Shown here piece after piece: positions 2,226 to 24,724 of a stretch of DNA of 64,000 nucleotides. The notes beneath the pieces are model-generated. The model was given only the letters and a program-made list of their open reading frames with translations, did no database searches and was not told where the DNA came from. Made by a program: the position numbers and the translations under genes. The DNA comes from a virus. Each line of letters starts with the position of its first letter. The stretch's first letter is position 1. The stretch covers positions 1 to 64,000 of IMG/VR virus record IMGVR_UViG_3300047359_001782, one strand, 5' to 3'.

Positions 2226-3311
2226 TTAAATTGGTTCTACTCTCCACATTGATCTTGGTCTACCAAATTCTTCACAAACATAGTACCCTAGATCAGTAAC
2301 AATGTCAAGTATTTCCCCACAAGTTAATTCAGAACCTTTCATTCTGCTTTGAATCTGTTTTAGACTTGGATAATCACCATCCTCATGTTTATTCTCTATA
2401 TAATTTCTTATAGCTAAAGCATCTGAAGACATTTCATCTTCATCATAACAATCGCAACTACCACAATCTCCACTACAACCCTCATCTTCATCTGAATCAG
2501 AATCTTCTACGCTTCCATAGATAGGCTTATTAGCCTCGTAGACAGGTCTATTTAGCTCTACTCTAGTATCGGTAATGTCTGCCACTACCTCGTACTTTGA
2601 AACACGCAACTTCTGAAAGTCACAATCAGTTGGAACTGATACCGCATCACATGGATCAAATTTAACGACAAGTAATTTACCATTTTGCCCTGCCCAATTA
2701 TTAGCATAATCGTATGAACCAACATGAAGACCAAAAGAACAATGATTGTCCTTGTTATCGTCAACACATCTACGAGCGACTTCGATAGTCTCTCCGACTC
2801 CGTTGAAGATTTGATGATTACCATTAGTCTTGCCTTGTAATACAAGAGTATCCGCATTACCTGTTTGTGACCAATAGTCACCTTGAACACCCTTGTAACC
2901 TAAAACCATACCATCTTCATCACTTGGCAATGATTTGTAGCTCAAGAATGTATAGAGTTCATTAACAGAATTAGCACTTGGATTAGCTTGCAATCGCTTA
3001 ATGAAATTTACAAGCGGAGCAGAATCCTTCATGCCGTTACGAAGCATTTCGATAAGTTTATCGACAACAACACCATGTAGTCTATGACCTTTGTAGTAAA
3101 CTACTTCGTCACGCACTTCAATGTCTCCTTCGACAAAATTCTCTACCGACTTCTTAATGTCAATTAAATCTCCAAGGTCTTCGTATCTAGCATCATAAAT
3201 TGCTTTACGAGCAAGAGTGAAATTAGGATGATCTTTGCGAAGCGTATATGGCTTGCCATCCCAAAAGATCGTTAGTGAATTTTCGCTTAATGTATATGGT
3301 ACTTTCTTCAT
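2226..3311 (-). CDS. rIIB: rIIB-like protein
   Basis: 361-aa protein of the T4 rIIB family. It has the family's central block (RLQANPSANSVNELYTFLS, then DEDGMVLGYKGV) and the VDDN...CSFGLHVGSYDYA...VVKFDPCDAVSVP core at about residues 100-235. A Cys/Asp/Glu-rich linker (SDSDEDEGCSGDCGSCDCYDEDE, about 265-292) precedes a C-terminal winged-helix-like segment. In T4, rIIA and rIIB act at the membrane against exclusion by lambda Rex; the exact biochemistry is unknown. It directly follows the rIIA-like gene and also has its own strong promoter. Confidence 0.85.
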   Translation of the reverse strand: MKKVPYTLSENSLTIFWDGKPYTLRKDHPNFTLARKAIYDARYEDLGDLIDIKKSVENFVEGDIEVRDEVVYYKGHRLHGVVVDKLIEMLRNGMKDSAPLVNFIKRLQANPSANSVNELYTFLSYKSLPSDEDGMVLGYKGVQGDYWSQTGNADTLVLQGKTNGNHQIFNGVGETIEVARRCVDDNKDNHCSFGLHVGSYDYANNWAGQNGKLLVVKFDPCDAVSVPTDCDFQKLRVSKYEVVADITDTRVELNRPVYEANKPIYGSVEDSDSDEDEGCSGDCGSCDCYDEDEMSSDALAIRNYIENKHEDGDYPSLKQIQSRMKGSELTCGEILDIVTDLGYYVCEEFGRPRSMWRVEPI

Positions 3312-3319
3312 AGTAAATA

Positions 3320-3348
3320 ATTATAGTTTATAATTGAATAGTTGTCAA
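3320..3348 (-). promoter_or_regulatory. consensus sigma70 promoter for rIIB
   Basis: On the minus strand TTGACA (3343-3348), 17-bp spacer, TATAAT (3320-3325): a perfect match in both boxes. The -10 box ends 8 nt before the rIIB ATG. It lies between rIIA and rIIB, just short of the rIIA stop. Confidence 0.9.
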
Positions 3349-3349
3349 G

Positions 3350-5635
3350 TTAAATTCTGTCACAATCTTTAATATAGTTGATAATATCTTCATTTGTCTC
3401 CTTGTCGTTTGATCCATAGGTATTTACACTTTTGCAAGCATACTTTAGCATTGGATATTTTGTTTTAATTGAATTAATATCTTTATAGAATTGCTTTGCA
3501 GTAAAGCCACTATCAAGATTGAATTGTAGCCAATCTTTGTGATTGCTTGATAGATAATTAACCAACTTCACGCACACGCTACTAGCGTTATTATGCACGA
3601 TTGACTTTATATCATCATGTACATGACATAGTATATGGTTGTTGTCAAAATGCTCTGTTAAGCGAAGAGACGCACTATTAAAAATCTTGCCAATATCATA
3701 TTGAAGGTTCGCTATCTCATGCTTCTTTCCATCATCATTTACAAGTCTTACTTTGTACGCTTTCTTCGCTTGCTTGAGGTTTTGCTTGAGGTAATTCTTT
3801 GCGAATTGCACATAAAAATCTGTGATACTAACCCAAGAATCAGAATCTAATTTAGATACATCTCCACTGCGAACACCGAATAATCGAAAAGATTTTTCTT
3901 GCGAATTCTCTTCTGCGTGTTGTCTAATGAACAACATTCTTTTCTGCATTATATCAAGATCAATAGCATCTCCTTCAATGTCAATCTTGTAATTTTTGAT
4001 AGGAACATAAATAAATTTTCCATCAACTAATCCATCAGATTTTTTCTTGCCTTGCAGTTTAGAAATATCTTCATCAACGCTTTTCCAATAGTCTGCATTA
4101 CGATATATGTGATCTCTATCTCTCATTTCAAATAGCTGAATGTCTGCACGACTACCATTACTTTTGCGTACTCCACTACGCAATGGCTTTTGCTTTTCTA
4201 CTTGAGAAGTATATCTAATATGCTTTTCGTCTATCATGTCAAAACACCAATCATCATACAAAATTCTTTGTTTAATTGCATTAGTTTTTGGATAGATAAA
4301 GAATATGGTTTCGAGTTCAGAATCTTCTGCGAATAGAGTTCTTGCTCTCAAGTTGTTGCCATGAGAAGACTCAATATCTTGAATGAGAAATAAAGAATTA
4401 TCTTGACAATGAACACGACTTGTTTTCTGCGAACGAACCCTAAATCCATCTCTCGCATCTTTGTCTGATTCTCGATCTGTTTGCGTAATAATGCAATCCT
4501 CATGGTCTTGATGACCTCTGTAAAAAGAAGATGAATTAATTTGCAACCCATTCCATGTGAAAGAATTCTCGAAAATAGAACGCATTTGATGAGGCATTGA
4601 ATTTACAATTCTAGCATAGTTTCTCATTGCTTCCCATAAGTCTTCGGAATTAGCTAATTTTTCTTTTGCGATTGCTTGTACTTCTTCGCAAGTTTTAACT
4701 AATGCTTCCACAAGAGTTTTTTGCGTTGACTTATTGTATTCTAATGCTTCACGACTATGATGCAATTTTACTGCACCTAAAGGTAATCGCAGATAAAAAT
4801 TACTTTGTTTAAGTAAGTTGCGAATAATATCTAACTTTCTCGCATCATCTTTGATAAAATTTTCAACTAGAATAGATTGCGGATCAAGAGGATACGCAAC
4901 TCTACCCATGATGATATGAGAAGAACCATAATAATTGTAATCGTAGCGATCATCTTGAAGGAAAAACCATTCCTTGTTTTTGCTTGACAATGCGAATTCT
5001 TTCTTATTGATAAAATTATCTTCAACACCAAGAAACTTTGGCATCTCTTCATCCGAAAAGAATCTGAAGAACTTTGCAGTATCTTCTCTGAAAGCAGAAA
5101 TATCTGACTCTGCAACTGCAACTTCGATAGATAGTCCTGTTGGTTCAGAAGATTTCTCTTCATGTAATTTTACAATCTTGGTATCATCGTGTTCATCTAC
5201 AAAAATATTGTATGATGTTTTCTTTCCACCATGATAGGATACGCAGGTGAAGTTATCTCCATAAGAAAGAGGAGCGAATTTACCGATACCAAATGCACCA
5301 ATATAATTATTCGATTCTCTTTTGGTTGATTTGCCATACTTAGAATACAAACCAAAAACATCTTCTTGGCTCAATCCACCGCCAAAATCACGAACCGAAA
5401 AAGTTGGATTCATGTTGCTTGGCAATACAATTTCAATCTTACGCTTAGAATTTGCTTCTGTATTCGCATCTAGTGCGTTAGCACTAATCTCACGAATAAC
5501 CGCAAGGCGAGTGTTAGAGTAGTTGTTTCGCAAGAGCGAGGCAACATAACGCATATCTTCTGCATCAATCGTACAATTTACTGAATCAAAATCGTGTGAC
5601 TGAACAATAGTTTTTTGTGTTTTTTCAATTATCAT
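3350..5635 (-). CDS. rIIA: rIIA-like GHKL ATPase
   Basis: 761-aa homolog of T4 rIIA. The N-terminus holds a GHKL (Hsp90/MutL/histidine kinase) ATP site: REISANALDAN at 48-58 (Glu49 and Asn53), DFGGG at 83-87, and the lid GAFGIGK at 113-119. The remainder is a long variable region. The rIIA/rIIB pair is associated with defence against host exclusion systems and with lysis phenotypes in T4. It has its own perfect promoter with a 33-nt leader, one of the few genes here with a leader. Confidence 0.87.
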   Translation of the reverse strand: MIIEKTQKTIVQSHDFDSVNCTIDAEDMRYVASLLRNNYSNTRLAVIREISANALDANTEANSKRKIEIVLPSNMNPTFSVRDFGGGLSQEDVFGLYSKYGKSTKRESNNYIGAFGIGKFAPLSYGDNFTCVSYHGGKKTSYNIFVDEHDDTKIVKLHEEKSSEPTGLSIEVAVAESDISAFREDTAKFFRFFSDEEMPKFLGVEDNFINKKEFALSSKNKEWFFLQDDRYDYNYYGSSHIIMGRVAYPLDPQSILVENFIKDDARKLDIIRNLLKQSNFYLRLPLGAVKLHHSREALEYNKSTQKTLVEALVKTCEEVQAIAKEKLANSEDLWEAMRNYARIVNSMPHQMRSIFENSFTWNGLQINSSSFYRGHQDHEDCIITQTDRESDKDARDGFRVRSQKTSRVHCQDNSLFLIQDIESSHGNNLRARTLFAEDSELETIFFIYPKTNAIKQRILYDDWCFDMIDEKHIRYTSQVEKQKPLRSGVRKSNGSRADIQLFEMRDRDHIYRNADYWKSVDEDISKLQGKKKSDGLVDGKFIYVPIKNYKIDIEGDAIDLDIMQKRMLFIRQHAEENSQEKSFRLFGVRSGDVSKLDSDSWVSITDFYVQFAKNYLKQNLKQAKKAYKVRLVNDDGKKHEIANLQYDIGKIFNSASLRLTEHFDNNHILCHVHDDIKSIVHNNASSVCVKLVNYLSSNHKDWLQFNLDSGFTAKQFYKDINSIKTKYPMLKYACKSVNTYGSNDKETNEDIINYIKDCDRI

Positions 5636-12517: not shown

Positions 12518-12526
12518 AATATGTTT

Positions 12527-13360
12527 ATGGTAGACCAACCAAAATTTGATGACTTAGGGGATATAGTCCCTCACAGGAATTTTACTATACCATTTAATTA
12601 TGTTTGGGATCAAACTATATCAAGATGGGTTCCAATGACAAGTGGCGGTTCCTATGCAGGAGGAATAACTGCTCAAGCAAGCGATTTTGTTCATAAATTT
12701 GGTAGCAATCCAAGTATCAAAAATAGTGGGTTATCAGTCAGTAGCCCCGAAACAATTTGGGATGGATCAAATGAATATATTTTTCCAAGTGATAGTGGAG
12801 AGATTATGGAAATTGTGTCATCCGATGGGTCAGATACTCAAGATGTGGTTATTCAAGGTTTAGATGAAAATTTCTTGGAAAAAACTTGGACGAGCACACT
12901 CACAGGTTCAACTCCTGTTAATATAGGGACTTGGACACGCATATTTCGAGCGTATAACGATGGAAATGTCGATTTCGCGGGAAACATAACAATCAATGAA
13001 GTTGGGGGTTCAATTGATTATGTTAAAATTCTTGATGGCAATAATCAAACGCTCATGTGCGTATATACAGTTCCTGCTGATAAAATTGGTTATTTAACTA
13101 AATATAGTTTATCCGCTCAAAAACCAAGTTCAAGTAGTATAAATTTTACTGCTCAAATAAGGACACGCGAATTTGGTAAAGTGTTTCGAGTACGCGAAAT
13201 TGTATCTTTTGGAACAGATCACGATACGCAAAGAAGCCTTGACTTTCCAACTAAGCTACAACCAAAAACAGATATAATATTTAATATTGTAGATTCAGAC
13301 GGAAACAATGGTGCAGTTAATGCTGATTTTGATATTGCATTGCATGATTTTATCTCATAG
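12527..13360 (+). CDS. virion structural protein (277 aa)
   Basis: Beta-rich protein similar to structural proteins of marine myo- and podoviruses: PETIWDGSNEYIFPSDSGE near residue 75, DTQDVVIQGLDENFLE, then GNNQTLMCVYTVPADKIGYLTKYSLSA. It probably forms a fibre or head/neck decoration. The start at 12527 is preferred over 12521 on the GTGTA spacing. It is transcribed divergently from the early operon and its end overlaps the convergent uvsE gene by 11 nt. Confidence 0.65.
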   Translation: MVDQPKFDDLGDIVPHRNFTIPFNYVWDQTISRWVPMTSGGSYAGGITAQASDFVHKFGSNPSIKNSGLSVSSPETIWDGSNEYIFPSDSGEIMEIVSSDGSDTQDVVIQGLDENFLEKTWTSTLTGSTPVNIGTWTRIFRAYNDGNVDFAGNITINEVGGSIDYVKILDGNNQTLMCVYTVPADKIGYLTKYSLSAQKPSSSSINFTAQIRTREFGKVFRVREIVSFGTDHDTQRSLDFPTKLQPKTDIIFNIVDSDGNNGAVNADFDIALHDFIS

Positions 13361-14372
13361 TTTTTTGGGATAAATTATCTCTCAATAAGCGAATAGCTTT
13401 GTCTTTGTGTTTAACTTCGCATTCCCACTTAATTGGTTGATCTTTACGAACGCAAAAAGTTGGAGGTGCAGACTTGTAGGAAAAGTAATCTGCATGGGCT
13501 CGCGGTTTATCTGCTCTACCTTCACTCCAATGAAAAACAGGACTACATTCTTCTGCCCATGTATATGCACATCTTTCGGTTTGCCATCTCACATTATTTA
13601 CTTCAGATGGATTGCAAATATCATGTAGGTTGTCGTAGCAAACAGGTATATTTAGCCGATACTTCTTGAAGATATATTCACTGAATTTAAGGATATTGTC
13701 TACATTCCAAAAACCTTTGTCTTCGTTTTCTATCGTTAGTCTCTTGAATACTCCTTCATTGCAACGCATTAGGTTATTATAAAAGCGTTCTGCAATTTCT
13801 TTAATGCGAATATTATTTATTGAATCAGGATCACTATCGCTTTTTATTTCGGGCGGTGTTGCATTAATATGAATATTCATTGGTGCAGAGTGATCTTGCG
13901 GTAAACCTAGTTTATCAAGAATGCTCGCTTGAAAATTTAATTCTTTAATTGTTTGATTTACTGATCTTTCATTTGTGGATGCAAGAACATTAAATTGATC
14001 GGGATGAGAGCCGATTGATATTTTAAAAGTTAGTGCGATTAGCCCTGCGAATCTTAATTCTTCTTCGATTCTGACTTTATGAGGAAGTTCTTCCATAGAA
14101 ATTCCCAGAGTCGGATCGGTAAGGAGAGGAAAAAGAGCAGAACTAAGACGATAATGCCTAATATTTGAGGAATGACAATGATTGATAATATATTGAGTAA
14201 CACTAACATTGTGCAAAATTCTCTCAGATAATTGAAAAATAGCTTCATCTCTACCTTCTGAGGTACACAAATCATTGAAACGCTTGCGGGTCATTGTTCG
14301 AAATGAATATTTCTTTTTGTCTTTATCTTTTAGCTCTTCGCTTATACAAGTAAGTCCTAGTATTGTTGTCAT
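13350..14372 (-). CDS. uvsE: UV damage endonuclease (UvdE/UvsE family)
   Basis: 340 aa, full length for the family. UvdE is a TIM-barrel, metal-dependent endonuclease that nicks DNA 5' to UV photoproducts. Diagnostic segments in order: HYRLSSALFPL, SIGSHPDQFNVLAS, NIHINA, LTIENEDKGFW, VCYDNLHDICNP, VFHWSEG, HADYFS and WECEVKHKDKAI, which supply the metal-binding His/Glu/Asp residues. It has its own promoter. This is direct incision repair, useful for sunlit waters. Confidence 0.94.
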   Translation of the reverse strand: MTTILGLTCISEELKDKDKKKYSFRTMTRKRFNDLCTSEGRDEAIFQLSERILHNVSVTQYIINHCHSSNIRHYRLSSALFPLLTDPTLGISMEELPHKVRIEEELRFAGLIALTFKISIGSHPDQFNVLASTNERSVNQTIKELNFQASILDKLGLPQDHSAPMNIHINATPPEIKSDSDPDSINNIRIKEIAERFYNNLMRCNEGVFKRLTIENEDKGFWNVDNILKFSEYIFKKYRLNIPVCYDNLHDICNPSEVNNVRWQTERCAYTWAEECSPVFHWSEGRADKPRAHADYFSYKSAPPTFCVRKDQPIKWECEVKHKDKAIRLLRDNLSQKTMR

Positions 14373-14620: not shown

Positions 14621-15247
14621 TTATTTCTCTAAAATTATTCTCATTAATACAGGGTTGTCGTCTTTGTAAATAGATAAATTATCTTGCTCATTGAAATAAA
14701 TCAATTTAAACCCAAGAGATAGAACTGCATTTAAAAACTTTTGTGAATCTACGAATCTGCGAGTATGTCCATCATTAAAATATGTTGTGTCACATACATG
14801 TTTACCAACTCCAAATTTTGGATCTTTTGTTGTGCGAACTTCGATGCAGAACAAGCCCCCTGAGTTTAAATAATTATAAACTTTAGGCAATAATTCTTCC
14901 TGGTCTTCCTCTGTTATTGAATGAATTGTGAATCTAGAATAAAAAACATCTGCTTTTTCACTAAAATTATATTCATCGTAAACAAAATCTTGTTCTATTA
15001 ACTTTAATGATGGCAATCTGTTTCTATTTATAACTTGATCGTCGATACTTTGATCTATGCCATATACTAAATGATTTCTCGCAAAATGTTTAGCGTCTCT
15101 AGCGTTACCGCAGCCAAGATCTGTGATTGTTTTTGGTTCTTTGTTTAAAAAATTATCACAGCAAAAACTTGCAAATGTACTGCATTCACGAATATCATCT
15201 CTATTTGAGTAGTTCCTATAAAATTTATCCCAATATTGTTTGTCCAT
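14621..15247 (-). CDS. class I SAM-dependent methyltransferase
   Basis: 208 aa. Motif I TDLGCGNARDAKHF (about 42-55) binds SAM. The acidic end of strand 2 is VYGIDQS, motif II is near EKADVFYSRF, and ELLPKVYNYLNSGGLF is the post-II segment. The N-terminal WDKFYRN...STFASFC is typical of methyltransferases in sugar/surface gene clusters. The substrate is unknown; the adjacent LicD-like gene suggests surface carbohydrate or lipid modification. Confidence 0.8.
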   Translation of the reverse strand: MDKQYWDKFYRNYSNRDDIRECSTFASFCCDNFLNKEPKTITDLGCGNARDAKHFARNHLVYGIDQSIDDQVINRNRLPSLKLIEQDFVYDEYNFSEKADVFYSRFTIHSITEEDQEELLPKVYNYLNSGGLFCIEVRTTKDPKFGVGKHVCDTTYFNDGHTRRFVDSQKFLNAVLSLGFKLIYFNEQDNLSIYKDDNPVLMRIILEK

Positions 15248-15249
15248 TT

Positions 15250-15759
15250 TTAAACATCAAGCCCCATTTCGCAACTTTTGCTTTGTGGAATTTCCCAATC
15301 TTTACCATACATAGAGATTATTTTTTGCAAATAACCATTTGGAAGATTTAAGATAGTCAACCGCCATTCTTTAGTTATGAAAGGTTTAGATTCGCTCGCA
15401 TTAACTCTGTGCCAAGGCGTATAAAAATCTCCAGATTCGTTGACATTGCACATATAAAAATCAATAGATCCATACTTGTCGCACGGCTCTGTTTTTAAAA
15501 TTGTATCTGGGTTTTTAATTCCATATTTAGAAGTAAAAATAAAACCTTCTTTCTCAAAACATGATCGTAATTTTTGATAATCACAATTAATCATAATATC
15601 CAAATCATCGTCTCCTTCTATGCAGCTATCTTCTCGAATAATTCCAAGTAATGTACCAAAAAATACAAACCAATCATTTATATTCTCTTTATGTAAAATA
15701 TTCGCTACAACTTCTAGTGTGCGATTTAATTTTTCTTTATCTGTGTGTATTCCTGCCAT
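15250..15759 (-). CDS. LicD/fukutin-like nucleotidyltransferase-fold protein
   Basis: 169 aa. WFVFFGTLLGIIREDSCIEG followed by DDDLDIMI (residues 53-60) is the LicD/FKRP signature: a G-T-L-L-G-x-x-R motif with a metal-binding D-D-D-x-D. Relatives transfer phosphocholine or phospho-sugars to glycans. It is shorter than typical LicD (about 270 aa), so it may be a minimal version. Two nt from the methyltransferase gene. Confidence 0.7.
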   Translation of the reverse strand: MAGIHTDKEKLNRTLEVVANILHKENINDWFVFFGTLLGIIREDSCIEGDDDLDIMINCDYQKLRSCFEKEGFIFTSKYGIKNPDTILKTEPCDKYGSIDFYMCNVNESGDFYTPWHRVNASESKPFITKEWRLTILNLPNGYLQKIISMYGKDWEIPQSKSCEMGLDV

Positions 15760-18322: not shown

Positions 18323-19126
18323 ATGAAAAGAAAAATTCTTATAATGGGACTTCCTGGATCAGGAAAGACGACACTAGCTGAAAAGCTCGTTGCCAAGTTA
18401 AACGCCGCTTGGTTTAATGCAGATGCTGTAAGGCAGGACATCTATTCGGAACTGGGTTTCTCGGAAGAGGATCGGCTTTCTCATGCAAAAAGAATGAGCA
18501 AGTTGTGTGACTGGGCAAAAATGGGAGGTAATTATGTGATTGCGGATTTTGTGTGTCCAACCCAAGAAACTAGGAAGGCATTTAATGCAGATTTTACAAT
18601 ATGGGTAGATAGAATTCAAGAAGGTAGATATGAAGATACAAACAAGATGTTTGAAAAGCCTTTGAACTATGACCTGAGATTAATAGATGGAACTCCAGAA
18701 GAGTGGGTTAGTAAAGTTGTTGGTAAATTAAATGAAACTGAAGCGTGGGATAACCAAGCTCCAACTGCATTGCTCATAGGTAGATATCAGCCATTTCATA
18801 TTGGGCACAAAAGCCTTGTTGCGGAAGCAATTAAAAGAACAGGGCAATGCTGTATTGCATTAAGAGATGTTGGAGGAATTGATGATAGTAATCCCTATGA
18901 TTTTGAAAAAGTCAAAAAAGAAATACATTCTGCTTGTATCGAATTCGGAAACAAAATTAAGGTTGTTGAACTGCCTAATATTATGGATGTATTTTATGGA
19001 AGAGGTGTTGGTTATAATATCGAACAACTAGAGCTAAGTAAAGAATTACAAGAAGTGTCTGCCACCAAGATCAGGGATGGTCAAATTGGTCAAGATGGAA
19101 AACCTTTAGGCAAAAGACCAGAATAA
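18323..19126 (+). CDS. adenylylsulfate kinase-like / nucleotidyltransferase fusion
   Basis: 267 aa in two domains. Residues 1-135: P-loop kinase of the APS kinase (CysC) type, with Walker A GLPGSGKTT (9-17), NADAVR, LGFSEEDRL and VIADFVCP. It would phosphorylate adenylylsulfate to PAPS. Residues about 146-267: HxGH-type nucleotidyltransferase with GRYQPFHIGH (His159, His162) and SATKIR (246-251), closest in style to NMN/cytidylyl transferases and much shorter than ATP sulfurylase. With two sulfotransferases downstream, PAPS supply is the likely role. The C-domain substrate is uncertain. Confidence 0.75.
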   Translation: MKRKILIMGLPGSGKTTLAEKLVAKLNAAWFNADAVRQDIYSELGFSEEDRLSHAKRMSKLCDWAKMGGNYVIADFVCPTQETRKAFNADFTIWVDRIQEGRYEDTNKMFEKPLNYDLRLIDGTPEEWVSKVVGKLNETEAWDNQAPTALLIGRYQPFHIGHKSLVAEAIKRTGQCCIALRDVGGIDDSNPYDFEKVKKEIHSACIEFGNKIKVVELPNIMDVFYGRGVGYNIEQLELSKELQEVSATKIRDGQIGQDGKPLGKRPE

Positions 19127-19135
19127 GCTCAATAA

Positions 19136-19768
19136 TTATTCCGCAAATTTGTACCCAAAATACTCAATGTCTTTTGCGTATTTTTCCGCAACGATTTGAC
19201 GAGTTTCGTCATCATAATATTCAGTATATTTTTTATGATTAGTTTTATTTTTATGAGGTAAGTTTTGTTTTTTTATATTAATAGAATCACACACGAAATC
19301 AAAATCTTCTTGATATGTCTCCAGTTTTCCCAAGAAACTTAATTGAAGTTCTTGTTTATCGTCAAAAATTGCGAACCTTGGGTCTGTGAAAGGCATAACA
19401 TGAGACCATCTAAAAAAAGAAAAGTCGTGTTCATTAGGTAAAAAATTAAAAACGAAATCACGAAAATCATGAAATTCATTTTTAAAATTATTTTGAGATA
19501 TTTTTTTTCCGCTAACCCATGGGCATTTCCAGGCTGAAACCACCCTGTCGTATGGATTTCTTGCGAAAGAAAAAGAAAAACTTAATTTTTTTTGGTCCTC
19601 AAAGCTACAATATACATCAGTATTAAACTTTTCATTTAAATATTTAGTGTCTGCGTTTCTTGGGTCAATTAGTATTCCATTATCTCTGCAGATCTGCTCC
19701 ATCGACATTCCTCCGCATTTTGGAAGATGTATAAAAAGAAATTTATTAGGACTATATTCTGTTTTCAT
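19136..19768 (-). CDS. sulfotransferase (PAPS-dependent) 1
   Basis: 210 aa. The 5'-phosphosulfate loop KFLFIHLPKCGGMSM (9-23) and the 3'-phosphate region FSFARNPYDRVVSAW (68-82) define the Golgi-type/family-2 sulfotransferase fold. The C-terminal TEYYDDETRQIVAEKYAKDI block is typical of these phage and bacterial enzymes. It probably sulfates a carbohydrate. Overlaps the GT90-like gene by 17 nt; paralog at 20737. Confidence 0.85.
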   Translation of the reverse strand: MKTEYSPNKFLFIHLPKCGGMSMEQICRDNGILIDPRNADTKYLNEKFNTDVYCSFEDQKKLSFSFSFARNPYDRVVSAWKCPWVSGKKISQNNFKNEFHDFRDFVFNFLPNEHDFSFFRWSHVMPFTDPRFAIFDDKQELQLSFLGKLETYQEDFDFVCDSINIKKQNLPHKNKTNHKKYTEYYDDETRQIVAEKYAKDIEYFGYKFAE

Positions 19769-20735
19769 GAAGTTTTTTGAATATTTTTTTTTGTATTTCA
19801 GTTTCAGAGACCTCGGTAAACTGAGACATATAAAGACTTGCCCTGTCAGAGATTTTCTTACATTCTTTGTTATTGGATTTACACCATGCGAGTTTATTCT
19901 CTAGGTCCGACCCATCATCTTTGATTGGAATATAGTGCTCCCATGGTTCAAGCTTAAAATGTAAAATATTATGCCACTTAGGGGTCGTTGCAATAGTTAC
20001 ACTGTTAGACCGTAAGGATTTGCATAAGCTAGAGGGCCAATCATAGCCTTCTAGGTTTAGTATGTATTTATAAGAGCAAATATCTTGAGCCCACGATAAT
20101 TGTTCGCCCAATGCGTGAGGATTATTTTTAAGAAATAAATCAAAATCCTGCAATCTATCTTTAGTAAATTTATTTTTAAATTTCAAGGGGAAGTCAACGA
20201 ATTTTATATTATATTTTTTTGAAAATTTGTTGACAAAAATGAACCTTTGAACTTCTTTAATGCTTTTATTAAAATCAGAAAATTTACCAACGCGATTAAG
20301 TTGGCGGTCTAACCCTGATGCGACTCCCCTCCATACGATTTCGTCTTTTTTATCTTCAAAATTATAGTGATCTTGCCATTTCGATACTATTCTTTCGTGC
20401 GTTTGGCTCAGAGACCATAGTATAGAATAATCTTTGTCAGCAGGGCGATTGTGAGATACGTATGGATATTTTTTAAGGTTGAGATGATGATTTTTCTGTA
20501 ATCGATTAATCCTTAACTCTAGATTTTTTTCATTCAAGTGATCTCTCGAATCTAAAATTAAACCGGGGTTTTTTTTGATTTCAAAAAATTTACATTTCTC
20601 TATCCAATACAAAAATCTTTGGTCGTCGGGGCTAAATAAAGAATAATCTTCCCAGTCAAGCTCTAAATTAGATGGATATTTTTGAAAATGCCACTTTCCC
20701 ATCCGAAATTTAACAGCTTGATCGATGTATGACAT
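19752..20735 (-). CDS. GT90 (CAP10-like) glycosyltransferase
   Basis: 327 aa from ATG 20735 (GGAG lies 6 nt upstream, within the end of the previous gene). It has the CAP10/GT90 features DEIVWRG and the C-terminal KYILNLEGYDWPSSLCKSLRS...KPWE-like block with HYIPIKDDGSDLENKLAWCK. Family members are xylosyl/glucosyl transferases or LPS-modifying enzymes. It lies between two sulfotransferase genes. Confidence 0.8.
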   Translation of the reverse strand: MSYIDQAVKFRMGKWHFQKYPSNLELDWEDYSLFSPDDQRFLYWIEKCKFFEIKKNPGLILDSRDHLNEKNLELRINRLQKNHHLNLKKYPYVSHNRPADKDYSILWSLSQTHERIVSKWQDHYNFEDKKDEIVWRGVASGLDRQLNRVGKFSDFNKSIKEVQRFIFVNKFSKKYNIKFVDFPLKFKNKFTKDRLQDFDLFLKNNPHALGEQLSWAQDICSYKYILNLEGYDWPSSLCKSLRSNSVTIATTPKWHNILHFKLEPWEHYIPIKDDGSDLENKLAWCKSNNKECKKISDRASLYMSQFTEVSETEIQKKIFKKLHENRI

Positions 20736-20736
20736 T

Positions 20737-21453
20737 TCATTCTCCAAATTTGTAATTAAAAAATTCAATGTCTTTTGAGTAGTTTTTGGCGAACGAATTT
20801 TTAGCTTCCTCGTCATAGTACTCTGTGTAATGTTTGTGTTTAGATTTATTAGAATGCGGCAACTCCATCTGAGGCAAGCCTATTTTTTCGCAAACATAAT
20901 TAAAATCTTGCTGAAGATTTTCTGATTTGCCGATAAAGTCTAAGCCTAATTTACCTTCTTTATTTAAAACCCACTGATGCTGCCCATCTCTAAATTTTCC
21001 CCAGTTTTCAGCTCTCGAAGCAAAATGTTTAAATGGTTTTTGAAGATTTTTGTTCGACACTGCCCATTCGTGTCCTTTTTCCGCTTGCTGTCTACCAAAA
21101 AAATATTGAGATACTTTTCTGTCCCAAGGGTTTCTGCAAAATGCAAACTTAAAATACTCGTCTAAGTTAATTTTTTCCCTATTAAAAACAGACTCTACTA
21201 AAGAAAAGGTGCTATGTTGATGAAATTCTTCATACAGCCTTAACTGATCTTCTGTATAATCATGTATTATTTCCCAGTTTGCCGAAGTGCCTGATATAGG
21301 TAGCTCGTCATATCCCACTTTAAAAGAAATTAAATCTTCCATTTCGAGCATTCCGTTTTTATGGAAATGGTTTTCTATTTTTTTTCTAATTGATGTGCCT
21401 GCGCATTTTGGAATATGTATAAAAATAAATTTTTTTGAGTGTGATATTATCAT
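20737..21453 (-). CDS. sulfotransferase (PAPS-dependent) 2
   Basis: 238 aa. KFIFIHIPKCAGTSI (8-22) and FAFCRNPWDRKVSQYFF (103-119) are the two PAPS-binding loops, and TEYYDEEAKNSFAKNYSKDI is at the C-terminus. Homologous to the 19136-19768 enzyme but diverged in the middle, so it probably has a different acceptor. Coupled to the GT25 gene by ATGA. Confidence 0.87.
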   Translation of the reverse strand: MIISHSKKFIFIHIPKCAGTSIRKKIENHFHKNGMLEMEDLISFKVGYDELPISGTSANWEIIHDYTEDQLRLYEEFHQHSTFSLVESVFNREKINLDEYFKFAFCRNPWDRKVSQYFFGRQQAEKGHEWAVSNKNLQKPFKHFASRAENWGKFRDGQHQWVLNKEGKLGLDFIGKSENLQQDFNYVCEKIGLPQMELPHSNKSKHKHYTEYYDEEAKNSFAKNYSKDIEFFNYKFGE

Positions 21454-22172
21454 GATAAAAAAGTTTGGTTTTCATAGATTACACTTCCCATTTCGCTTTG
21501 ATCATCTTCGACTCCACAACTTCCTTTTGAGAAAAAACTTTCAGAGGGGTATGCCGTTGCGAAAATAAGATGCGAAAAGCTATTTAATAGCAAATCAATG
21601 TTTTCATTCCAAGGGCGAACTTCAAGCAATCTTCTAATCCCCTCCTTGTTAATTAATTGGGCGGTAGTGTACCACTGCGGAATCATTTTATAAAAATTGT
21701 GACCTACTAAAAAAGCTTCATTAAACTGTTGCGATTTCGAAAAATTCCAATAACCTGTGTCTTCTGGCCAAAACCCTTTTCCTTCTCCCACATGAAGCCG
21801 TACAAAATGAGTGCCTATTGAATCGGCTTTTTCGGCAATTAATTCAGCTTCTTCGATAAAGCCTTTTTTTACTCCAGCATCGTCTTCTAATATTAAAAAC
21901 CAATTTTCTTTGAGATCTTCTTTGAGTATTTTGCTAAATAAAACTGAATAAGATAAATTGCAACCTAATTTTCCAGGCATGTTTTTCCATTTATCTTTGT
22001 AAAAATCTGTGTGAAAATGATGCTTGCGATCAAATTCACATAAAGATTCATAGTTTTCAAGTCCGTCTACCGCTTCAAATAAATTTAAATTACCATCAGA
22101 CAAAGTCTTGGCCAGCTTAAAGTTTTCAACCCTCTCTTTGGATTTCATGTATGTTATCATGTATGCTTTCAT
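21450..22172 (-). CDS. GT25-family glycosyltransferase
   Basis: 240 aa. MPGKLGCNLSYSVLFSKI and WFLILEDDAGV are the conserved GT25 (LPS beta-galactosyltransferase type) blocks; E-D-D is the metal-binding motif. The N-terminus MKAYMITYMKSKERVENF is the usual first strand. Overlaps both neighbours by ATGA. Confidence 0.8.
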   Translation of the reverse strand: MKAYMITYMKSKERVENFKLAKTLSDGNLNLFEAVDGLENYESLCEFDRKHHFHTDFYKDKWKNMPGKLGCNLSYSVLFSKILKEDLKENWFLILEDDAGVKKGFIEEAELIAEKADSIGTHFVRLHVGEGKGFWPEDTGYWNFSKSQQFNEAFLVGHNFYKMIPQWYTTAQLINKEGIRRLLEVRPWNENIDLLLNSFSHLIFATAYPSESFFSKGSCGVEDDQSEMGSVIYENQTFLS

Positions 22173-23164
22173 AATTTATCAATTAATTCGCTATATACTA
22201 AATTGATATTATCAGAAGAATCTACGCTGTATCTCTCATGAAAAAATGATGTTTCTTTTTGAGAAATATAATTTTTATATTCTTCGCTATCATTCCAATC
22301 TTGATTTCTTTCAACTCTTTCTTGGAAAAATGCGTAGATATCTTTTCTTAAAAATTTATAATGCAAAAGAGCGCAAAATGCTTCTGTATCTCTAACGGTC
22401 TCTAAGCTTTTTTTAACGGCTTCAAGGTAAGATTTTTTATCAAAATATGATGTTGATGAAACTGGTGCTATGGCTATATTATTAAGATAGAAGTTGTAAA
22501 ATTCAGATAAAGGTTTGATCCAGTGCCATCCCCCGCTAACATGGTGAGATAAATAAAATTCGTTTTTGAATAAACTGCATTTACTGATCATATTAAACGA
22601 ATCATAAACTCTTTTTCTAAGTCCTCCCATGACATATTTTTGACCAAAATCGCTGTAGCCATCTTTGTAATATATTTCATTAAACCGATCAAAAAAACAA
22701 GAACTTTCTATAGTTTGGTTATGTACAGAATTTAAGTTTTTTGGATACATATCTACGAGTATTGATCTCGCAGAATTTAATTTACGTGCTTCAAGATTGC
22801 TGATTAAATCTATTATCTTTTGGTTATTTTTTGGCATAAAAAATTCATCAGCATCAATAGTGATGCACCAATTATCAATGCAATATTTTTGCATAAAATC
22901 ATTAGCCCAATTGCTACCCCATTTGGAAGCAATAAAAGATTCTTCGCATATATAAGCTTCAATGTTATATTTTGAGCTTAAATCTTTTAGTATATTAATT
23001 GTATTATCATCAGATAAATTGTCAAAAAAAACAAAATGAGAGACTCCGTGCGAATAATAGTGGTCTAGGAAGCTATGTAAAATATGCTCTTCATTGCGCA
23101 TTGGACAAAGACAAATGATCGAGTCTTTTTTTATACTGCTGGAAAAACTTAAAATTTTTTTCAT
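22169..23164 (-). CDS. GT2-like glycosyltransferase
   Basis: 331 aa. CPMRNEEHILHSFLDHYYSHGVSHFVFFDNLSDDNT and ITIDADEFF (catalytic D-x-D region) match the Glyco_tranf_2_4 group of GT-A enzymes. It probably adds a sugar to a surface or virion glycan. Confidence 0.8.
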   Translation of the reverse strand: MKKILSFSSSIKKDSIICLCPMRNEEHILHSFLDHYYSHGVSHFVFFDNLSDDNTINILKDLSSKYNIEAYICEESFIASKWGSNWANDFMQKYCIDNWCITIDADEFFMPKNNQKIIDLISNLEARKLNSARSILVDMYPKNLNSVHNQTIESSCFFDRFNEIYYKDGYSDFGQKYVMGGLRKRVYDSFNMISKCSLFKNEFYLSHHVSGGWHWIKPLSEFYNFYLNNIAIAPVSSTSYFDKKSYLEAVKKSLETVRDTEAFCALLHYKFLRKDIYAFFQERVERNQDWNDSEEYKNYISQKETSFFHERYSVDSSDNINLVYSELIDKL

Positions 23165-24724
23165 TTATAAAAGATATTCTAACAGTAATTGAATATAGCT
23201 TAATTTATCTGAAAAACTTTTAGAATCTAGATTTTTTGCAAATAGTTTATCTTTGTTTTGGTTGAGAAAAATCTCTAACTCTTCTGGGTAGGAGTGTTTT
23301 TGTCCTAAGATAAATTTGTTAGAAATTAATTGCCAAGCACATCGTTTTATAAACCAATGTTCTTCAAGTCTTGCTGGAAATATTTTATGGTAAACCAAGC
23401 AATCTGAGCTGTAAACACATGTATAATTTTGTTTTAGTCTAGAAAATAATTCATCTTCTTCTCCGCTCATTAAAATTTGACCTCGCCTTCCTAATGCGAC
23501 ATTAAACCCTCCAGATTTTTTGAGAATAGAGGTGCGAAAGCACATATTTGTTCCGACTATATATTCCTCAGATTCTTCCGTAAGAATGACATTTTTTGAA
23601 TCGGAATTTTGTATTGATAAAAACTTAAGTAAATTATCGTTTAGCCAGTCAGGTCTTTCGCTGATCCACTTGGGGACAACTTTTCCACCACAAACCGCAA
23701 GATTCTGGAATTTTAAAAATTTAGATTTAAAATTCTCAAGTAAGTCAAAATTTGCTATCGCATCATCGTCTATGTAAAAAATTAAGTCAGTTGTGCATTT
23801 ATCTATAGCTATATTACGAGACTCGGACAACCCAGATGTTGGGGTGTGAATATACTCGCAGTGATCATATAAATCGCAAAGAGACTTTAACTTTTTAAAA
23901 TGCTCTAATCTCTCACCATCGATTTGATTTATGGGAAAATTATCTATAATAAAAATTTTATTTTTATCATCTGATATAGTTTGTTGTATTAATGATAAAA
24001 GAGTTTCTCTGCAGGATTCATAATTGCCATAAGTACAGATGCAAGAGGTAATGCTTAAGTCTTTTTTCCAAAATTCAAAATTATCTTCTATTTTTTTATA
24101 ATTTTTTGGGTGATATCTTATCAGATCTTTGTTGATGAAATTTATTCTATAATGGAAGCCTACTTTTTCAAGAGTACAATATTCTATAAATTTAAGATGC
24201 TCACATTTAATTGAATTTTTAGTAAAATTATTTTCGTAAAAAATGTCCAAATTAAGTAATTTTGGGTCTTCATGAATTGATATGAGTTTTTTTGCACCTC
24301 GATTTGAAATGTAATAGCAAGCGGAGGATAAGAAATCTGTTGAAGTGAAATTTACAAAATCTAATTTTTCTGGAATATCTGGATTGGAAAGTAAAAGCGT
24401 TAAGAAGTCGGAAAAATTGACATTATCTTCAATAACAAAGCAAAAATCAAGCTCTTGCTCTGCGACTTTGCGCCATATATTTATGTGGGTTTGACATAAT
24501 CCAATAAGTTGAGGATTTGTTGAAAAAGAAATAGATTGTTCTTTGCTTATTGGGGTAATATTCTGCAATGAATTATGAGTTAAATCAACTACATTAAGAG
24601 TGTCAATTAGTTCTACTTCTTCTAAAGAATTTTTAATCTCATCTGGTAGCAAATCAAATAAATTAAACGCATCTTTATACGAATTAGATTCTTCGTGACA
24701 AATAAAAAATATTTTAAAATTCAT
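23165..24724 (-). CDS. GT25-like / GT2 bifunctional glycosyltransferase
   Basis: 519 aa, two domains. Residues 1-220 resemble GT25 (GLCQTHINIWRKVAEQELDFCFVIEDN), although E-D-N replaces E-D-D. Residues about 226-519 are a canonical GT2 domain: SITSCICTYGNYESCRETLLSL, SGLSESRNIAID, FYIDDDA and a C-terminal MSGEEDELFSRL. A fusion of the two glycosyltransferase types present separately next door; the altered E-D-N makes N-domain activity uncertain. Confidence 0.78.
   Translation of the reverse strand: MNFKIFFICHEESNSYKDAFNLFDLLPDEIKNSLEEVELIDTLNVVDLTHNSLQNITPISKEQSISFSTNPQLIGLCQTHINIWRKVAEQELDFCFVIEDNVNFSDFLTLLLSNPDIPEKLDFVNFTSTDFLSSACYYISNRGAKKLISIHEDPKLLNLDIFYENNFTKNSIKCEHLKFIEYCTLEKVGFHYRINFINKDLIRYHPKNYKKIEDNFEFWKKDLSITSCICTYGNYESCRETLLSLIQQTISDDKNKIFIIDNFPINQIDGERLEHFKKLKSLCDLYDHCEYIHTPTSGLSESRNIAIDKCTTDLIFYIDDDAIANFDLLENFKSKFLKFQNLAVCGGKVVPKWISERPDWLNDNLLKFLSIQNSDSKNVILTEESEEYIVGTNMCFRTSILKKSGGFNVALGRRGQILMSGEEDELFSRLKQNYTCVYSSDCLVYHKIFPARLEEHWFIKRCAWQLISNKFILGQKHSYPEELEIFLNQNKDKLFAKNLDSKSFSDKLSYIQLLLEYLL

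Follow-up and report, generated by a model that had tools for sequence, protein, structure and literature searches.

What reaction is carried out by a phage protein that joins a kinase domain resembling adenosine 5′-phosphosulfate (APS) kinase to a short HxGH nucleotidyltransferase domain? The question is raised by a gene of a marine phage, in the IMG/VR virus record IMGVR_UViG_3300047359_001782, of which positions 1 to 64,000 were analysed (this whole stretch of 64,000 nucleotides is termed the window). An earlier interpretation made from the letters alone (the sequence-only reading) had noted that the domain order mirrors that of 3′-phosphoadenosine 5′-phosphosulfate (PAPS) synthase, and had proposed that the second domain is either a minimal sulfurylase substitute or an enzyme activating a sugar or nicotinamide. 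The sulfurylase arm is now favoured by strong inference, because of sulfotransferase neighbours, a haloarchaeal fusion to a full APS kinase, the exclusion of CysD in Pelagibacterales, and the adjacency of aprBA and of DUF2061 genes; the nicotinamide or sugar arm was left unsupported.

The fusion is most probably a minimal PAPS synthase that combines both activities, its ATP sulfurylase being non-canonical and derived from NadM. In the proposed scheme, the HxGH nucleotidyltransferase domain of ∼110 residues at the C-terminus (termed NT) would adenylylate inorganic sulfate with ATP, yielding APS and pyrophosphate, and the N-terminal domain would phosphorylate the 3′-OH of APS to give PAPS. The PAPS would then be used by sulfotransferases, here probably the two adjacent ones in a glycan-modification cluster. 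We infer the catalytic activity, the specificity of NT for sulfate, the order of the two steps and the sulfated target from the lines of evidence set out below.

The fusion gene and its family

18323..19126, + strand: kinase–nucleotidyltransferase fusion gene, predicted minimal PAPS synthase, 267 residues

The open reading frame starts with ATG, stops with TAA and encodes a 267-residue product. A single protein family, PHROG 10255 (‘kinase’), spans residues 4-252 (1.5e-52), and since it runs across both domains the fusion is a family in its own right and a chance read-through is excluded; the PHROG carries no assigned reaction and leaves the NT half unnamed. Relatives of the fusion protein were found on viral contigs (146) and in annotated phages of Stenotrophomonas, Xanthomonas and Clavibacter (5), and the active sites of both kinase and NT are invariant across 45 non-redundant phage members, down to ∼42% identity. 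The fusion described by the sequence-only reading is thus real, with Pfam matches for both of its domains. The full-length AlphaFold2 model has a modest predicted template modelling score (0.58), and for this reason the packing of the domains was left uninterpreted.

The N-terminal kinase domain

18323..18742, + strand: APS-kinase-like domain, residues 1-140 (Pfam APS_kinase; top Foldseek matches are APS kinases)
18347..18373, + strand: P-loop GLPGSGKTT, residues 9-17 (GLPGxGK invariant among non-redundant members)
18416..18433, + strand: NADAVR, residues 32-37, counterpart of the DGDxxR motif of APS kinases by alignment to 2yvu and 7yq0 (D34 and R37 invariant)
18455..18475, + strand: GFSEEDR, residues 45-51, APS-kinase substrate-side motif (F46 and R51 invariant; same in 7yq0)
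18623..18652, + strand: GRYEDTNKMF, residues 101-110, family-specific motif where the canonical lid would lie (D105, T106, N107 and F110 invariant)

Residues 5-87 match Pfam APS_kinase (PF01583) at 6e-13, with 49.5 bits against a cut-off of 21.1, and APS kinases rank first in a Foldseek search (7yq1, 6.4e-9). The domain has both the P-loop and the substrate-side DGDxxR...GFSxxDR motifs of APS kinases: GLPGSGKT, NADxVR, GFSxEDR, FVCP and R84 all align with 2yvu and 7yq0, and P79 is a further invariant residue among non-redundant members.

The C-terminal nucleotidyltransferase domain

18749..19081, + strand: HxGH nucleotidyltransferase domain, predicted sulfate adenylyltransferase, residues 143-253 (nearest solved relatives NadM)
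18779..18808, + strand: GRYQPFHIGH, residues 153-162, ATP-binding HxGH motif (GRxQPxHxGH conserved)
18863..18868, + strand: R181-D182 (the sampled NadM and CoaD have no Arg here, the haloarchaeal fusion does)
18995..19015, + strand: YGRGVGY, residues 225-231, NT-specific, replacing the NadM segment at the site for nicotinamide mononucleotide (NMN)
19058..19075, + strand: SATKIR, residues 246-251, ATP-phosphate-binding motif (conserved in alignments)

The NT domain, for which the AlphaFold2 model has a predicted local distance difference test score of 90, matches Pfam CTP_transf_like above the cut-off at residues 151-175 (8.6e-6), and the GRYQPFHIGH and SATKIR motifs picked out by the sequence-only reading are in place. 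That reading was also right that this is not a classical ATP sulfurylase, as no similarity to Sat or CysD was found: Sat (PF01747) is absent from the best Pfam matches of the protein and no Sat relative appears in the NT structure lists, whilst CysD is a PP-loop domain of different fold and its model TIGR02039 is not among the NCBIfam matches listed.

The closest families in both sequence and fold are the NadM-type NMN adenylyltransferases (PRK05379, TIGR01527), which come first in a profile search (2qjt, 1e-10) and in a fold search (2r5w, 7.7e-4), and which have the nucleotidyltransferase motifs GRxQPxHxGH, NP[FY] and S[AG]TxxR in common with NT. The phage protein could on these grounds serve NAD salvage, as a nicotinamide riboside kinase joined to an NMN adenylyltransferase that rebuilds phage NAD+; NadR likewise combines an HxGH domain and a P-loop kinase in a single chain, and NadM-type enzymes occur in phages. 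NT differs from NadM, however, in a shortened acceptor half, in its RD and YGRxVGY motifs and in its sulfur-related neighbours. The stretch from P[ND]I to S[AG]TxxR comprises ∼25 residues in NT, including YGRxVGY, against ∼49 in haloarchaeal NadM, so that the NMN-site segment is ∼25 residues shorter and of different sequence, and the curated NadM cut-offs are far from reached (32 against 397 and 20 against 181 bits). The position of R181 is occupied by Ser in the NadM sequences compared and by Ala in CoaD, whilst both Arg motifs (RD and YGRxVGY) are also present in the haloarchaeal fusion; a shortened acceptor half with conserved Arg residues of its own is as expected for a small-anion acceptor. 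In a tree, a split of moderate support sets the 31 bacterial and phage NT domains apart from the sampled NadM and CoaD, and two haloarchaeal NT domains sit on long branches and were not placed. The firm clustering with NadM or NadR that had been named as grounds for abandoning a sulfurylase was therefore not seen, since NT groups apart and lacks about half of the PDI-to-SGTxxR segment, although NadM is nearest by profile. Furthermore, NadR has its NMN adenylyltransferase first and its ribosylnicotinamide kinase second, the reverse of the phage order, and beyond the P-loop the phage kinase resembles APS kinase and not the NadR kinase domain, so that the protein is not a NadR. Nor were NAD genes noticed as neighbours, which instead include sulfotransferases, aprBA and a full APS kinase, and NAD salvage does not predict the CysD exclusion described below. 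The family of the kinase, the shortened NMN-site segment and the gene context led to rejection of a domain-swapped NadR, which is very unlikely.

By the tests made, NT belongs to none of Sat, CysD and NadM, and working in the manner of a PAPS synthase is the best-supported prediction for the fusion. One genome of the SAR11 order encodes a second, divergent NT paralogue (L209, G227:C1:11838-12176), with Met at the position of R181.

Distribution and genomic context

In a scan of genomes, members of the family were detected in Bradyrhizobium, Microvirga, Rhizobium, Pelagibacteraceae, SAR86 and elsewhere. A single fused gene is present in Bradyrhizobium, Microvirga and part of SAR11, whereas SAR86 and many SAR11 encode kinase and NT by two adjacent, often overlapping genes; their being fused in some genomes and split but adjacent in others argues for a shared pathway. 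Haloarchaeal plasmids also encode this type of NT, there joined in one chain with a full APS kinase (Pfam 1.2e-44).

Sulfotransferases, of several families, recur next to the pair in many unrelated hosts. In Bradyrhizobium a TPR-Sulfotransfer_3 sulfotransferase directly adjoins it, as does a sulfotransferase in a Pelagibacter-like metagenome-assembled genome (L112) and one in SAR11 L116, the last recognised by weak similarity and motif only, without a Pfam match. In SAR11 L153 a sulfotransferase (by motif only) sits between the kinase and NT genes, and in a SAR86 subclade a distance of ∼550 bp separates a sulfotransferase from the NT domain. In haloarchaea a sulfotransferase is found upstream of the APS kinase–NT gene in all eight annotated plasmids examined. 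A YqcI/YcgG-family gene accompanies these two (L166, L168, L195-L200), in the order sulfotransferase, APS kinase–NT, YqcI/YcgG in seven of the eight and on the other side in one, which suggests that a pathway leading to a sulfated product is conserved.

In one Pelagibacterales clade the kinase and NT pair is convergent with adjacent aprB and aprA genes, AprB being identified by APS-reductase_C (2.5e-31) and AprA by its flavoprotein domains and position. The usual partner of aprBA is an ATP sulfurylase. In SAR86 L157 the kinase and NT genes are separated by one for a DUF2061 membrane protein, recognised by sequence and confirmed by annotated relatives; in the nod cluster of a Mesorhizobium nodulation plasmid, such a gene separates a sulfotransferase gene from cysD. 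DUF2061 repeatedly adjoins kinase/NT or cysDN (L157:8399-8611, L059:6710-6982, L125:3283-3492, L201:2971-3204), and its role is perhaps sulfate transport. In core SAR11 (L131-L163) the pair was observed between a GcvT-like (DmdA-like) and MetF-like gene pair and an enoyl-CoA hydratase gene.

This context bears on a second alternative, by analogy with the Campylobacter phosphoramidate pathway, in which NT would attach a small non-sulfate anion (phosphonate, phosphoramidate or a sugar phosphate) to AMP or CMP and the kinase would act on the 3′-OH to give another 3′-phosphorylated, nucleotide-activated donor. APS-kinase homologues with other nucleotide substrates are known, the lid is remodelled here, and glycan genes surround the phage fusion gene. 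The neighbours in unrelated hosts, however, are PAPS-dependent enzyme families and APS reductase, and the haloarchaeal partner of NT is a full APS kinase, so such a donor is considered unlikely.

Co-occurrence with known ATP sulfurylases

Among 46 genomes with the family, Sat was found in 2 and a CysD match in 11, all of them larger genomes; none of the family-bearing SAR11 and SAR86 genomes in this set has CysD. Of 147 Pelagibacterales genomes, 110 have a strong NT match and 9 have CysD with an overlap of 0, that is, NT in 0/9 genomes with CysD against 110/138 without (Fisher p=1.8e-6, a value which, like that for SAR86 below, is inflated by relatedness, as the genomes are not phylogenetically independent). 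Weak 27-bit matches to the NT profile in Pelagibacterales, at first taken as NadM-like, proved to be CoaD where examined (GSFDPIHKGH) and were left out of the NT count. The CysD loci of this order combine CysD with a CysN-type open reading frame bearing a kinase-domain match, and are a complete alternative for sulfate activation; by this mutual exclusion, NT apparently takes the place of canonical ATP sulfurylase where a genome requires PAPS. The published gene tables agree with it: Pelagibacter strains are listed with cysC, cysQ and, for the most part, aprA, but with neither cysD nor sat, whilst HIMB59 has cysD and cysN without cysC (PMC5069961). Of 151 SAR86-order genomes, 80 have NT and 87 have Sulfotransfer_3, with both in 76 and neither in 60 (odds ratio ∼104, p=1e-25). 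CysD exceeds the cut-off in a single one of them, which encodes a sulfotransferase and no NT.

A third alternative is that the kinase uses APS made elsewhere, by host CysDN or by AprBA with sulfite and AMP, and that NT is unrelated or regulatory. SAR11 carries AprBA, which is able to form APS from sulfite (PMC5069961), and plasmids of Methylosinus and Rhizobium carry kinase-only copies of the DTNK family, with polysaccharide genes or a sulfotransferase nearby (L165, L167). Against this, the catalytic residues of NT are invariant, NT is almost always fused or adjacent to the kinase, CysD substitutes for NT in small genomes without coexisting with it, and no AprBA neighbour is present at the phage and SAR86 loci examined; an external source of APS is highly improbable.

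Several observations weigh against a PAPS synthase. The nearest solved relatives of NT are NMN adenylyltransferases rather than ATP sulfurylases. The kinase was called an APS kinase by the sequence-only reading, which its Pfam match and motifs bear out in part; yet only the first half of the model is matched (ending at model position 92/152), the canonical C-terminal lid (KGLY...FTGI) is absent and replaced by GR[YF]xDTNKxF, and the cut-off of the NCBIfam equivalog TIGR00455 is missed (44.1 against 138.7 bits). Some family members have no obvious sulfation gene as neighbour, and large-genome alphaproteobacteria carry CysD and the fusion together. Across the 147 Pelagibacterales genomes NT does not track Sulfotransfer_3 (odds ratio 0.79, p=0.57), and 14 lack NT, CysD and Sat although they have a sulfotransferase, perhaps through incompleteness. 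In 25 phage records, sulfotransferases come no closer to the gene than under random placement (9 against 7.0 within 5 kb, p=0.23), and because of this lack of significance their proximity within phages was not used as evidence. The relatedness of the genomes counted is to be added to these points.

Comparison with known sulfate-activating systems

PAPS synthases (human PAPSS, and the Sat/APS kinase of Aquifex and others) likewise place an APS-kinase-type and an HxGH-superfamily domain on one chain, and the same overall reaction is predicted for the phage protein; PAPSS1/2 also have the kinase first. They differ in size (∼620 residues in human and 546 in 2gks, against 267), and the phage NT is a NadM-like domain of ∼110 residues without a Sat (PF01747) match, next to a kinase with a different lid. 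CysDN(C)/NodPQ occupies the same genomic niche, with sulfotransferase and DUF2061, and is apparently functionally replaced in Pelagibacterales, but CysD is a PP-loop enzyme of unrelated fold driven by the GTPase CysN, and the phage protein has no GTPase.

The phage neighbourhood

19136..19768, − strand: sulfotransferase (Sulfotransfer_2), likely PAPS consumer (Pfam 1.9e-15)
19752..20816, − strand: glycosyltransferase family 90 protein, between both sulfotransferases (Pfam 6.5e-18)
20737..21453, − strand: second sulfotransferase (Sulfotransfer_2; Pfam 6.5e-16)
21450..24724, − strand: three more glycosyltransferases (GT25, GT2/GT92-like and GT2)

Sulfotransferases are common in phage records with the fusion gene (26/51, up to ∼10 per genome), and G064, G067, G072 and G073 each carry an unusual load of ∼10 Sulfotransfer_2 matches. 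A LicD-like gene (15250-15759, − strand) adjoins a methyltransferase gene (14621-15247, − strand), possibly as part of the same surface-glycan programme. The source record, a virus contig of 87.4 kb, encodes rIIA, rIIB and a tape-measure protein of 2724 residues, which together indicate a long-tailed (siphovirus-type) phage. The rIIA/rIIB homologues, known from T4-like phages, lie at 2226-5635 (− strand), here alongside a siphovirus-type tape-measure protein. Elsewhere in the window are a UV-damage-endonuclease-like protein (13350-14372, − strand; PHROG 8420 endonuclease), adjoined by a gene of the unknown-function family PHROG 8198 (12521-13360), and a cysteine protease of the papain family (C1; 24907-25896, + strand).

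Implications for SAR11, SAR86 and phages

NT is probably an independent form of ATP sulfurylase, the third after Sat and CysDN, which would have arisen from a NadM-like nucleotidyltransferase, would through SAR11 and SAR86 rank among the most abundant sulfate-activating enzymes of the ocean, and would have been acquired by phages for glycan sulfation with their own PAPS; no account of NT as an ATP sulfurylase was found in the open-access literature. In ocean bacteria, SAR11 and SAR86 among them, NT may supply the missing sulfate-activation step. If so, a gap would be closed in SAR11, which has been described with APS reductase and an orphan cysC, without sat or cysDN (PMC5069961), and SAR11 would be able to make PAPS and sulfate products. 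Phages, in turn, would carry a complete and compact sulfate-activation module together with up to ∼10 sulfotransferases per genome.
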